Program-made: the position numbers and the translations under genes
DNA from: Bolinopsis microptera
Lineage: Eukaryota > Ctenophora > Tentaculata > Lobata > Bolinopsidae
DNA length: 64,000 nt
Direction: 5' to 3'
NCBI RefSeq assembly: GCF_026151205.1
Contig: NC_087072.1
Coordinates: forward strand, 12,688,169-12,752,168
Notes under the pieces: model-generated
Told to the model about the DNA's origin: nothing
The model's database searches: none
The model's input: only the letters and a program-made list of their open reading frames with translations
In this document: positions 605 through 26,100 of the stretch, piece by piece
How the letters are laid out: every line of letters starts with the position of its first letter
Position numbering within the stretch: position 1 is the stretch's first letter

Positions 605-718
605 ATGAAGGGCAACCAAAAGGTTAAGTACTCCTTCTCGGACCTGGTAGCGATGAAACTGCCGAGAAGCAGCAGAAGTGGGATGCTGCTTAGAAGAGGC
701 ATGTCCTTTGTCGACAGG
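605..718 (+). CDS. Candidate alternative first exon A (38 aa)
   Basis: ATG at 605 opens 38 codons with coding-like composition, from MKGNQKVKYSFSDLVAMK to RRGMSFVDR, ending at a consensus GTAAGT donor in phase 0. Net charge is strongly basic. No acceptor abuts the start, so it is read as a first exon. It could splice to the short exon at 2584 or straight to the dynein exon at 23924, since all are phase 0. I do not recognise the peptide. It could instead belong to an unrelated gene. Confidence 0.5.
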
Positions 719-1881
719 GTAAGTTGATATTTTGAGTATCTCACATTAATCGTTATGGCAGGTGACTTGTTGTCAGAAGCTCTCCGAAAGGTTGAGAAGT
801 CACTACTTCACAGTCACTGTTTTATCTCGTTGAAACGAATCCAATCTACCTAATTATTGAATATAGGATAGCACAATGATACCTATAATCTCACGGCATT
901 CGCGTGGAGTATCCCAATTCAGTTAGTGGAAACAAACTTAATTTAACGAAGCGAATTGGCCACCGACTTATGAAGCTCAAGTACAAGCATCCTGAAGTAA
1001 CTATAACTTTCACTGATATCATAATTGCCAAAAAACTTATCTTCAGCCTACAAAAACTTGACAGAACAAGAACATACGTGAACACCGAACAGTCACAAAT
1101 TCTTGCTTTATTGGTCTATCAGGGGCTTAAAAGGTCGTAATAATGTCAGGAAATATTCTAACATTTCCCTATTGTTGCATTAAGTTTTAACTAAGTGTAG
1201 ATGGTATACACAGCTGCCTCCTCTTTGCAATATTCCTCCTTACTAAACGACAATAAATGCAAAGATAATATGAGATAAGACGCTTTTATGGTACACGTAC
1301 TATAGTTCGACACGCACTAAAGTTCGACTCTGTCATTTCTTTATTTTACAAAAAATTAAACCCAATATTTGAAAAAATAAATATTAAAGAAAATACGTGA
1401 AAAATAATTTGGGGAAAATAATGATGGTGACCTAAATTTTGGTAGTCCGAATATATGGTGTTTTTTGTTGATTGGCTCCCAATATTATCACGTGAACAGA
1501 AATCCAATCAGAACGTCCCTGGTGAATCGATCGATCCAATCTGAATCAGACCACGATAACGCTATGAATTATAAATAATTATACCTACTGCGGCGTTGAA
1601 TGTCAATTTATCTATGATTTCTATGATTCTATATTTCTAAATTTTGGCATACCAAATCGTTTGCAATGCAATCAAGACTTATTGATGTTGTACAATGTAC
1701 ATCGTACAATGTACATCGTACATGAGTGTACGCGTTTGAAAGGGCATCGTTAGAGTATTATCAGTATCAAGAACTTCATTCGACTATTATAAAGAAAGTT
1801 GAGCTTGATATTAGTCAATAGTCGTCAATTTACAACTGCAAGCACAAATTAAGACCTCCCCCATTACGCCTAATTTTTCTT

Positions 1882-1906
1882 GGGGGGGGGGGGGGGGGGG
1901 GGGGGG
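1882..1906 (+). repeat. Homopolymer of 25 G
   Basis: Uninterrupted G run, able to form G-quadruplex structure and prone to length error. Confidence 0.95.
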
Positions 1907-2365
1907 CCTTCTTGGCACATACTCCGTACTCAGATCCTTGAAGTTGACGCTTTCGCGTGTTTAACTATAAGTTCGTTTTCTATTTTAGCTAGAAATTAAA
2001 TCTGTCTGACATACTTAATTCGGAAAGTAAGGACAGACTAAAAGTAAAAGGGTGAGCTCTATAAGTATTGAATTCTAGCGGCCGTAAACCTTTAACCCAA
2101 GATATCCCTCAACCACCAAATCATTTAACCATCAAATTACGAATCCATCATTTTGAAACTGCTTTCGTAAAACTGTAGGTCTCCGGGATTAACCTGACTG
2201 GGCTGTCTGCTATTTTAAGCACCCAGAATCCAAATGACTTTCCACGTTCTTCAAAACTTAACTGTACAACCAAGCTTGGCTGTAGACGTGCAGTAATCTA
2301 AGAAGAATTCGGATCAATAAATATACCAGAACCGTAAACCTAAAAAGACATGATAATAGATTCGT

Positions 2366-2423
2366 GTTACCATGACAATAGAGTCTTGTTACCATGACGA
2401 TAGAGTCTTGTTACCATGATGAT
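2366..2423. promoter_or_regulatory. Triple X-box-like motif
   Basis: Three copies of GTTACCATGAYRAT at 2366, 2388 and 2410, in a 22-bp tandem. The first differs from the RFX X-box (GTTNCCATGRCAAC) only at the last base. Confidence 0.35.
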
Positions 2424-22634: not shown

Positions 22635-22648
22635 GTTGCCATGACAAC
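22635..22648. promoter_or_regulatory. X-box RFX motif
   Basis: GTTGCCATGACAAC is a full match to the RFX consensus, 377 bases 5' of the dynein start at 23025. RFX control of axonemal dynein genes is well established. Confidence 0.55.
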
Positions 22649-23024
22649 CTAAATACTGATACTTTCTGTGATATCTTCACTAGTGTTTACTGAGCTTTCA
22701 GACAATAATTGCCCATTATTTGCCGCTAAAATGTTCCCATTACCGAAGTAGTGGCCGTGTCTTGCTCCTCGTTACCTAACTGCTCACTTCCGACGTACTA
22801 GCTGTAGTGTGACCTACTGTGCAAACCTCGCTTGTTTCTCTCCTTTTTTTGCTTTTTTGGTTGCATTCTAGTCGGCACTTTTATTTGTTGTTGGAAGTAG
22901 TTGGATACCTCTCTACCAGAGAGTCGCTAGTAGACCTGGGAAGATATACTCTGACGAGTGAGTTTAGTTAGTTTCACTCTTAGATCACCCACTGAGGGAA
23001 CTACAGCATCCATATCCTGTTACC

Positions 23025-23135
23025 ATGACGACAGATAAAGACAAGAAATACGCGGGACCAGTATTTAGCAACAAGGGAAAAAGACCGACTGTTAATGTCA
23101 TCGAGAAAGCACAGGATGTTCTTGTACAGTTTAGG
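23025..23135 (+). CDS. DNAH5: Dynein first exon (candidate nearest the shared exons)
   Basis: ATG at 23025 opens 37 codons, from [12 protein letters not shown] to DVLVQFR, ending at an AGG/GTGGGT donor in phase 0. It joins in frame to the exon at 23924. This gives a basic N-terminus followed by [20 protein letters not shown], which aligns with the start of vertebrate DNAH5. The start was chosen because it is the closest strong one and has X-box-like palindromes at 22635-22648 and over the ATG itself (23019-23032). Other candidate first exons lie upstream and one downstream (23694). Which are used is not decided by sequence alone. Confidence 0.72.
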
Positions 23136-26100
23136 GTGGGTAACTAATAGTTACAACTGGGTTACTAATAGTTACTAGTGTGTTACTAATAATAACCAAC
23201 AAGCTTAGACTGTTAAGTCTGTTAAAACAACATTGAAATGTTCTAATTAGTTTACAGTTGCAGATCTCCTCTTTTGAAAGATATTTGTCGTGAACGTTAA
23301 CCTAAGTTCGCGGATTCATATTACCGTGTAACAATACAATCACGTACATTTTCTATATGTTGCCTGTATGTTCAAAAATGAAAGTCTAGCAGGTGCATTT
23401 GGCGGGATATCGGTTGCCATGGTAACCCCGGTAACCATATGGCAGGATCATGCACCCTGTAACTCTGTAATCACACCTAATCTATTTACTTGGAACAGCT
23501 CCCACTTTACGGCCAGCTTCAATTCACTCAAATGAATTGTTCTGTTGTATGTTTTGATCGAGTATTTTAACTCCTTGATTTATCGTTATATCTTGTTACA
23601 ATTGGTCAGTAGTTGTTATTGTTGTGATACGTGTTATTTTGACTGTGTTAGTGACTGTGTTAGTGACTGTGTTAGTGACTGTGTGTTGGTGTGATGGAGG
23701 TGGCTGTGATGGTGTCAAATGCCAAGTTGGCAAAGGTACTTAGTGGCGCGCAGTACGTGATCTGATAATGTTCAGGAGGGGATATGACAATATGGACCTT
23801 GCTGTGTAACAGCACTTGACAAAATAAATACCATACAACGTAATGTCAATTTGTTGCTAATTATGCAATTGGTAGATTCACAGTGTTGTTAAAGTTTTCT
23901 CTCTTATCTTCCTCTCTCTTCAGCAAAAGGCTCGCGAGGAGAAGGAACACAAAAGAGGAAGGCTTGATGCTAGACATAATTATTTGCTCAGAACTGTCTC
24001 TGAGCACCTTCAGGTTTGTAATATTACTTTATTTAAATATTACTTTAAGATTTATTTAAATATTACTTTAAGATTTATTTAAATATTACTTTAACATTTA
24101 TTTAAACTAGCAGGAACCCGTATAACCCTAAAATGGTGTCAAGACTCAAGAGACTAAAATGATTATTATCTATTTAATTCGCGTTTTTGACACCACTTGG
24201 GGGTCCAAATTTGGGGCTCTAAAACTTCTATTTCTTGGCCAATTTTTTATTTTTTCATGCTGATTTGGAGGCCATTAAAGCATTTGGCCCAGTCAAAAAA
24301 GTTTCAGTTGTAAATCTTTTATGGTTTTTGCGGAAAGTAGCGTTAAAGTTGATGCCGTGGTGTCAGTAAAATGGCACGGATAAACATATATCGTCTCGCT
24401 TTATATATAGTAGGATATTACTTTAACATTTCGTGTTATGGTATCCTGATAAGTATTGTTTAACACAGTTTCCTACCAAACTCCAAACTGGTTCTGTCCC
24501 CAAAAACGTGTAACCCTCTAGTTCCATGGCCAAATAATACGGTAAAATAATTCATGCAAATTTTATTTGTGAAAAAAATTTATTCGGGTGACATGTTCCA
24601 TGCCCAAATAATTTGCGTGCGGAAATCGATACGCGTATCGGTTGCGTCGGGTGAGATCGAGACTGCGACCACCCAAGTTTAAATTAGGATGAAAATTACG
24701 TAAACATAACGTAAACTAGTGTAACAACCAATGTGCAAAAGCAAATTAGTGTCCTTCATATATTTTCTATAAACTTTTTTGTGTAAATTTTAGAAAATAG
24801 GGTTGACATATTATCTAAATTAAGTTGTTTGAACTTTCATAGTCAAGAATAATTCCTTCGCAATTAACATGTTTGACCAACTTAAATTAATATAAAGATA
24901 AAAGGACTGGGGAGGGGATCATGTTTTGTGTCCGTTTTGTCCGTTTGGTACCCTATATTTTCAAAACGGACAAAAAGTAGGGCGGTCAAGGACGGAACAA
25001 AAACAGACAATAATGTTGTGGAAATAACAGTTAGATGCTTCCTCCTCCTCCTCCTCCTCCCCCTCCTCCTCCTCCTCCTCCTCCTCCTCAGTCCTTCTCC
25101 TTCTCAGTCCTTCTCCTCCTCAGTCCTCCTCAGTCCTCTTCAGTCCTCCTGAGTCCTCCTCCTCCTCCTGAGTCCTTCTCCTCCTCCTGAGTCCTCCTCC
25201 TCCTGACTCCTCCTCCTCCTGCTCCTACTGAGTCCTCCTCCTCCTGAGTCCTCCTCCTCCTGAGTCCTCCTCCTCCTGAGTCCTCCTCCACCTGAGTCCT
25301 TCTCCTTCTCAGTCCTTCTCCTCCTCAGTCCTCTTGAGTCCTTCTCCTCCTCCTGAGTCCTCCTTCTCCTGAGTCCTCCTCCTTCTGCTCCTCCTGAGTC
25401 CTCCTCCTCCTGAGTCCTCCTCCTGAGTCCTCCTCCTCCTGAGTTCTCCTGAGTCCTCCTCAATCCTCCTCCTCCTTCTCCTCAGTCGTCCTAAATATCA
25501 GATAATAAAACATTGGTTCTTGAAATGGGAACCCGAAAATGACTCACTGCAGCTTCTCAATAAAATGGCTAATCGTGCAATCGATGTGTAGTGTAATAGC
25601 GTTGTTATCATTAGTGTTATTATGATATGCGTTAGGTAATCCCAGAAACATTTAGGACAACGAAATGCAATTATAGTATTGATTACAACCGCAGCGACTA
25701 TATTATTTGAGTGAAATTTAAAAAATTCGTGCGCAAGTTCACGAATTTTTTTAGCCCGAATATTTCAGTTGAAGCAAAAAATTTGGGTTAAAAATTCGGG
25801 CAAATTTTATTTGGGTGAAAAATTTGAGTGAAAATTCGGGCATGGAACTTAGGGGTAACAATATCCAGATAAGCTAACATGCTATAATCCTCAGTTGCCC
25901 CAAGCTGATCTCGAGGACAGTATACTCGAGGGCTTCCAGATTGAGCTAATGGATCAGTTCTTTTTGAAACCCTCCGTCTCTTTGATAATGTTTTGTGCAC
26001 CGAAACTAGAGCCGGTTGAAGCGGCTGCCACCACAACCGCCACCACCGCCACTACTACTGGTGAGTTCCCTTATAAGATACACTGTCTGCAGTTTCTCTC

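Follow-up and report, generated by a model that had tools for sequence, protein, structure and literature searches.

Beat and arm composition vary among the cilia of one animal, and the usual explanation is separate dynein heavy chain genes. Whether one such gene may also offer several N-termini is the question raised by a 64,000-nucleotide stretch of the genome of the ctenophore Bolinopsis microptera (assembly GCF_026151205.1, contig NC_087072.1, positions 12,688,169 to 12,752,168 of the forward strand), referred to at its full length as the window and numbered from its first letter. The recognizable part of an axonemal dynein heavy chain gene opens at position 23924, and an initial annotation had listed 12 frames in the 23 kb upstream as possible alternative first exons of this gene. 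Our analysis suggests that these 23 kb are likely the 5′ region of one DNAH5/8-type (gamma-type) gene that holds several alternative first coding exons. As judged from the sequence, the true first exons probably number six to ten, and we have good confidence that there are at least three.

The dynein gene and its shared exon

The gene that runs rightwards from 23924 is intact and encodes an outer-arm dynein heavy chain of the DNAH5/8 type. Human DNAH5 (8j07) matches across the first 395 shared residues (E 2.4e-99, alignment from DNAH5 residue 20), followed by 9fqr_I3 (E 7.7e-75) and the Chlamydomonas gamma chain (E 1e-40), and one exon carries the DHC_N1 domain (E 1.9e-28). The spliced model comprises 64 predicted exons, some of them false (e.g., at 39.4 kb, where one lies on an AG repeat), and 4293 codons including the stop; it reaches a C-terminal stop and thus describes a full-length motor gene.

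23924..24013, + strand: shared second coding exon of 30 codons in phase 0, with an acceptor scoring 4.86
24014..64000, + strand, continuing past the window to the stop at 82443: rest of the DNAH5/8-type dynein heavy chain gene (spliced model)

The initial description of 23924 as a shared phase-0 dynein exon holds, and its acceptor is strong beside a median of 3.50 over 62 acceptors of the gene model. The exon contains no in-frame ATG, and in the shared part an in-frame methionine first appears at residue 49, so that one or more coding exons have to lie upstream of 23924.

Candidate first exons upstream of 23924

All 12 frames lie where the initial annotation had placed them, and each opens with an ATG and runs to a phase-0 GT. 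They are given below with coding scores, donor scores or the two combined.

605..718, + strand: candidate first exon, strong; 38 codons, phase 0; combined score 10.9 or 13.0, donor 3.8; GC 0.51, net charge +7; borderline acceptor at 604 (score -0.3)
3186..3371, + strand: candidate first exon, strong coding and weak donor; 62 codons, phase 0; donor 0.7; GC 0.56; best score from the inner ATG at 3216 (combined 11.5 or 12.7)
9058..9108, + strand: weak candidate; 17 codons; combined 6.2 or 4.9, donor 4.2
9472..9516, + strand: candidate; 15 codons; combined 9.7 or 9.0, donor 5.6; GC 0.60
14103..14441, + strand: candidate first exon, strong; 113 codons; combined 16.6 or 11.1, donor 3.4; GC 0.60; peptide with GRPSV and Gly-rich repeats
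16020..16088, + strand: weak candidate; 23 codons; coding -3.2, donor 1.8; minisatellite begins 5 bp past its end
18654..18725, + strand: candidate first exon, moderate; 24 codons, very basic (net +5); coding 1.0, donor 2.0
19495..19569, + strand: candidate first exon, moderate; 25 codons, very basic (net +7); coding 3.8, donor -1.8; GC 0.49; exon end and donor covered by a minisatellite
20918..21031, + strand: candidate first exon, moderate; 38 codons; coding 6.7, donor -1.9; GC 0.54, equal to its upstream 200 bp (0.54); exon end and donor covered by a minisatellite
21497..21577, + strand: candidate first exon, strong; 27 codons, net +6; combined 8.6 or 7.4, donor 5.6 (CAG/GTAAGT); GC 0.47
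23025..23135, + strand: candidate first exon, moderate; 37 codons; coding 3.6, donor 1.8; minisatellite begins 2 bp past its end
23694..23735, + strand: short candidate first exon, moderate; 14 codons; combined 9.6 or 8.2, donor 2.6; GC 0.50

We place most trust in the candidates at 605, 3186, 14103 and 21497 and moderate trust in those at 18654, 19495, 20918, 23025 and 23694, while the candidate at 16020 is weak. We rejected one further ATG frame, basic and carrying RWQNVVKKATKGLF, at 9131-8988 bp upstream of the window's first position: it is similar in appearance but lacks a good phase-0 donor.

More phase-0 frames than chance provides

The frames were scored with a codon table trained on the dynein gene and a donor matrix built from 43 donors within the gene, whose scores have a median of 2.97 and a tenth percentile of 1.18; all ATG frames were scanned with the three phases treated alike, at a threshold of 6 for the combined coding and donor score. 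The + strand of 1-23923 contains eight frames at or above this threshold, seven of which (605, 3186, 9058, 9472, 14103, 21497 and 23694) have phase 0 as their best phase and are thus compatible with the one shared exon, the distribution over phases 0, 1 and 2 being 7:1:0 (binomial p 0.003 for seven of eight) or, with a retrained codon table, 6:1:0 (p 0.007 for six of seven). The remaining frame (11238-11361) is strong and ATG-started and lies on a tandem repeat resembling CACGTGAC; its best donor is in phase 1, and it is not in the candidate set.

Seven control strands totalling 214 kb, made up of the minus strand of the 5′ region, the flanks on both strands and the flank of a paralog, yielded 16 frames with even phases (5:6:5; 9:6:7 when retrained), and the minus strand of 1-23923 itself gave 0:0:1. 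From these controls, 0.56 phase-0 frames per 23.9 kb are expected against the seven observed (Poisson p 2e-6), or 1.0 against six with the retrained table (p 6e-4). In 100 second-order Markov shuffles, the mean number of phase-0 frames was 0.31 with a maximum of 2 (retrained mean 0.24). The least favourable control was the + strand of the introns within the same gene (32.8 kb; 3:2:2), from which 2.2 phase-0 frames would be expected against seven (p 0.007); two of its three phase-0 frames are simple repeats. The minus strand of the introns gave 2:2:3, with receptor-like genes nested there. When the phases are listed separately, phase-0 frames at thresholds of 4 and 6 number 12 and 4 on the + strand of the introns and 10 and 8 in the 5′ region.

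Composition, splice sites and minisatellites

Several other properties of the candidates are independent of the scan. Eight of the 12 have an exon-like GC content (0.47-0.60), the exons of the gene standing at 0.48 and its introns at 0.38. The claim that the peptides are mostly basic holds for every one of them: all 12 are net basic, with a mean charge of +0.15 per residue against 0.02 (standard deviation 0.09) for 188 ATG open reading frames. Upstream of nine candidates, the open frame has no acceptor that reaches the gene's tenth percentile, and these nine are therefore not cassette exons; the case of 605 is borderline.

Minisatellites start within 20 bp of four of the 12 candidate donors (16020, 19495, 20918 and 23025), compared with 5.6% of 1212 GT sites (p 0.003). 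They are also frequent at the 5′ splice sites of this gene, where nine of 47 donors in the gene model have a minisatellite starting at or spanning them (two of these at doubtful exon ends), which lends support to candidate donors that the matrix scores as weak. Elsewhere in the gene, minisatellites begin at or span splice sites at 26399-26620, 27788-28122, 35514-35845, 42258-42370, 52607-52693 and 57602-57711 and are found near acceptors at 31582-32007 and 63126-63422; some of the repeat units include an exon end together with its donor.

X-box-like sites in the 5′ region

The 5′ region contains sites that we take to be X-boxes, with RFX as their presumed factor; they are listed without strand.

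2960..2973: X-box-like site GTTACCATGGCAAT, one mismatch; 226 bp upstream of 3186
13163..13176: exact X-box GTTACCATGGCAAC; 940 bp upstream of 14103
22635..22648: X-box-like site GTTGCCATGACAAC, one mismatch; 390 bp upstream of 23025
23413..23435: exact X-box GTTGCCATGGTAAC; 281 bp upstream of 23694; an overlapping second site fits GTNRCC-N2-RGYAAC

At least 29 copies of the exact sequence GTTGCCATGGYAAC lie on the 26.2-Mb contig; the 24-kb 5′ region has two (Poisson p 3e-4), and two more are at the dynein paralog described below. Across the genome, the X-box palindrome GTTRCCATGGYAAC is present 1484 times, partly in tandem arrays of GTTACCATGGTAAC, whereas a reversed control appears once. A literature search pairing ctenophores with RFX and the X-box listed no paper.

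Dynein N-termini of relatives vary at the same junction

The initial annotation knew of no protocadherin-like promoter choice in an axonemal dynein heavy chain. This calls for correction in the light of the sequence databases, where DNAH5 isoforms from fishes and from human are on record whose N-termini differ up to this very junction, while the publications listed as matches in our literature search include none on alternative first exons or N-termini of axonemal dynein heavy chains, DNAH5 included. Protein searches were made at three length ranges, with 120 entries listed for each out of 513, 1168 and 188 matches; the first took in proteins up to about 4540 aa and was repeated with a longer query. 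Among the 350 proteins retrieved, 181 have an N-terminus that begins at least 10 residues before the residue aligned to the start of the shared exon, and these N-termini, many of which belong to predicted isoforms, fall into those with a QLW motif (37), those with a KExQ-like ending (98) and others (46).

In seven fishes (Pagrus major, Chaetodon trifascialis, Chaetodon auriga, Sander vitreus, Toxotes jaculatrix, Anoplopoma fimbria and Chelmon rostratus), two unrelated DNAH5 N-termini that end at the same junction residue occur within one species; the fish N-termini thus form two conserved kinds that coexist. In human DNAH5, the junction is preceded by 19 residues in 8j07 and by 55 in the entries P0043, P0045 and P0050. 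Since fishes and human vary at the same junction, switching of the N-terminus is not peculiar to the ctenophore; what would be peculiar is the number of choices. N-terminal choice through the first exon is probably old and has probably been enlarged in the ctenophore.

A DNAH8-type paralog on the same contig (6112350-6114100, minus strand) likewise has two phase-0 ATG frames that are candidate first exons, preceded at 130 and 637 bp by exact X-boxes; the matrix rates one of the two donors low, and the exon that follows them starts QRKSVITGDVVKD. An Acropora protein (P0001, 607 bits) was discarded as a close relative because its high score arises from a segment that is present twice in its N-terminal part. 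A second haplotype was also rejected, as 3000-3420 is single in the genome and 20800-23200 is found once in full with six short pieces elsewhere. A genome query made of a vertebrate N-terminus and the start of the shared part had no match, a null that shows nothing by itself.

Weighing the explanations

Several results weigh against a row of alternative first exons. Five of the 12 listed candidates fail the phase-blind test: 18654, 19495 and 16020 lie below the scan threshold, and 23025 and 20918 favour phases 1 and 2, respectively, by small margins. Good 5′ splice sites had been claimed throughout, which goes too far: nine of the 12 exceed the tenth percentile of the gene's donors, and those at 3186 (0.7), 19495 (-1.8) and 20918 (-1.9) are weak. 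Usable acceptors lie upstream of 9058 and 9472 (scores 3.1 and 2.9), which may instead be parts of internal exons beginning with an acceptor at 8931 and from 9448, respectively. X-boxes with at most one mismatch show no clear enrichment near single candidates (3 of 12 within 600 bp upstream, compared with 12.7% of random positions of the region), and exact sites of the looser form GTNRCC-N0-3-RGYAAC number three in the 24-kb 5′ region, two in 40 kb of the gene and two in 40 kb upstream. No ctenophore orthologue is among the named entries of the 120 listed per protein search, and profile scans of 36 kb that compared the candidate peptides with vertebrate N-termini gave about as many matches on the + strand as on the minus strand.

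These points bear on the possibility that just one or two of the frames are true first exons (e.g., 21497 or 605, plus 23694) and that the others are chance open frames which happen to meet a phase-fitting GT. Short frames are cheap, and besides the five sub-threshold candidates and the three weak donors, the gene's own introns supply three phase-0 frames per 32.8 kb. We nevertheless consider this explanation unlikely, given that all three expectations (0.56, 2.2 or 0.31) fall below the seven phase-0 frames found, that the 7:1:0 bias stands beside even phases in the flanking controls, and that the candidates are shifted in GC content and charge. Far less probable still is an origin of the frames in other small genes, or their use one after another as the 5′ exons of a single long N-terminus. 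The upstream acceptors at 9058 and 9472 would fit such an arrangement, as would the exon lengths, all of which are divisible by three so that joined exons would stay in frame. Against it, none of the eight candidate peptides scanned against Pfam matched above cutoff, nine of the 12 lack a good acceptor by which they could be joined, and the preferred phase is the very one that fits the dynein exon. Alternative first exons of the one dynein gene are the reading we prefer.

Neighbouring features

The nearest recognised upstream gene, on the + strand, encodes an OTU domain (E 7e-7) about 14 kb before the window and perhaps also a RanBP-type zinc finger, below the Pfam cutoff, about 30 kb before it. 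Within the dynein introns, receptor-like frames (7tm_1, below the Pfam cutoff) occur on the opposite strand at 33137-34240 and at 43.4-48 kb, the latter resembling a multi-exon gene. A scan of the window for RNA families gave none at the gathering threshold.

A proposed mechanism and its meaning

Alternative first exons would act as follows. Each would begin at its own start site and supply its own ATG with 14-113 codons, and the chosen exon would be spliced in phase 0 to 23924, so that the motor and almost the whole tail remain constant while a short, mostly basic N-terminal extension varies. Separate start sites would fit the lack of upstream acceptors at most candidates, and X-boxes lie near some of them; among ctenophores, H3K4me3 marks have been mapped in M. 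leidyi (PMC12221973). Promoter choice, in part through promoters with RFX X-boxes, would set which N-terminus is made; different first exons may be used in different cells, and the extension could alter how the arm docks, is pre-assembled or contacts its neighbours.

The arrangement recalls UGT1A-type and clustered-protocadherin-type loci, in which rows of first exons, each with a presumed promoter of its own, are spliced to common downstream exons. In those clusters the first exons encode large related domains, whereas here they would encode 14-113 residues with no relationship among them evident by eye, and no element was found at all candidates. First-exon choice at one dynein exon, as the initial annotation had proposed, is still the best reading; its likeness to the protocadherins is loose, with tiny exons and X-boxes near only some of them. 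The vertebrate DNAH5 isoforms are closer, belonging to the same gene family and sharing the junction residue, with mutually unrelated N-termini of about 19 or 30 residues within one species. They differ in having two main kinds in fishes as opposed to perhaps six to ten here, and there is no resemblance in sequence.

Outer arms of human airway cilia carry DNAH11/DNAH5 proximally and DNAH9/DNAH5 distally and so differ by heavy chain paralogue, as described in an excerpt of PMC10139691. On that excerpt's account, heavy chain variants there mark different arms in one cilium and are separate genes, whereas the variants here would be N-terminal forms of one gene. According to an excerpt of PMC4415241, which cites unpublished data, the N-terminal stem region is where calaxin attaches to the orthologue of the Chlamydomonas gamma heavy chain, and the dynein N-terminus is therefore a plausible site of regulation.

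As a tentative proposal, with the balance leaning somewhat against it, promoter choice might give the ctenophore at least eight N-terminal forms, distributed across its cilia (comb plates, sensory organ, gut and sperm) or over places along them, with choice at the junction being ancestral in animals and represented by about two forms in fishes. If this is true, first exons in a row would offer a second and cheaper route to outer-arm variety, in which the same motor receives a different front end. The junction is common to the fish, human and ctenophore genomes, which makes possible a direct test of whether dynein N-termini are sorted by type of cilium or by place along the axoneme.

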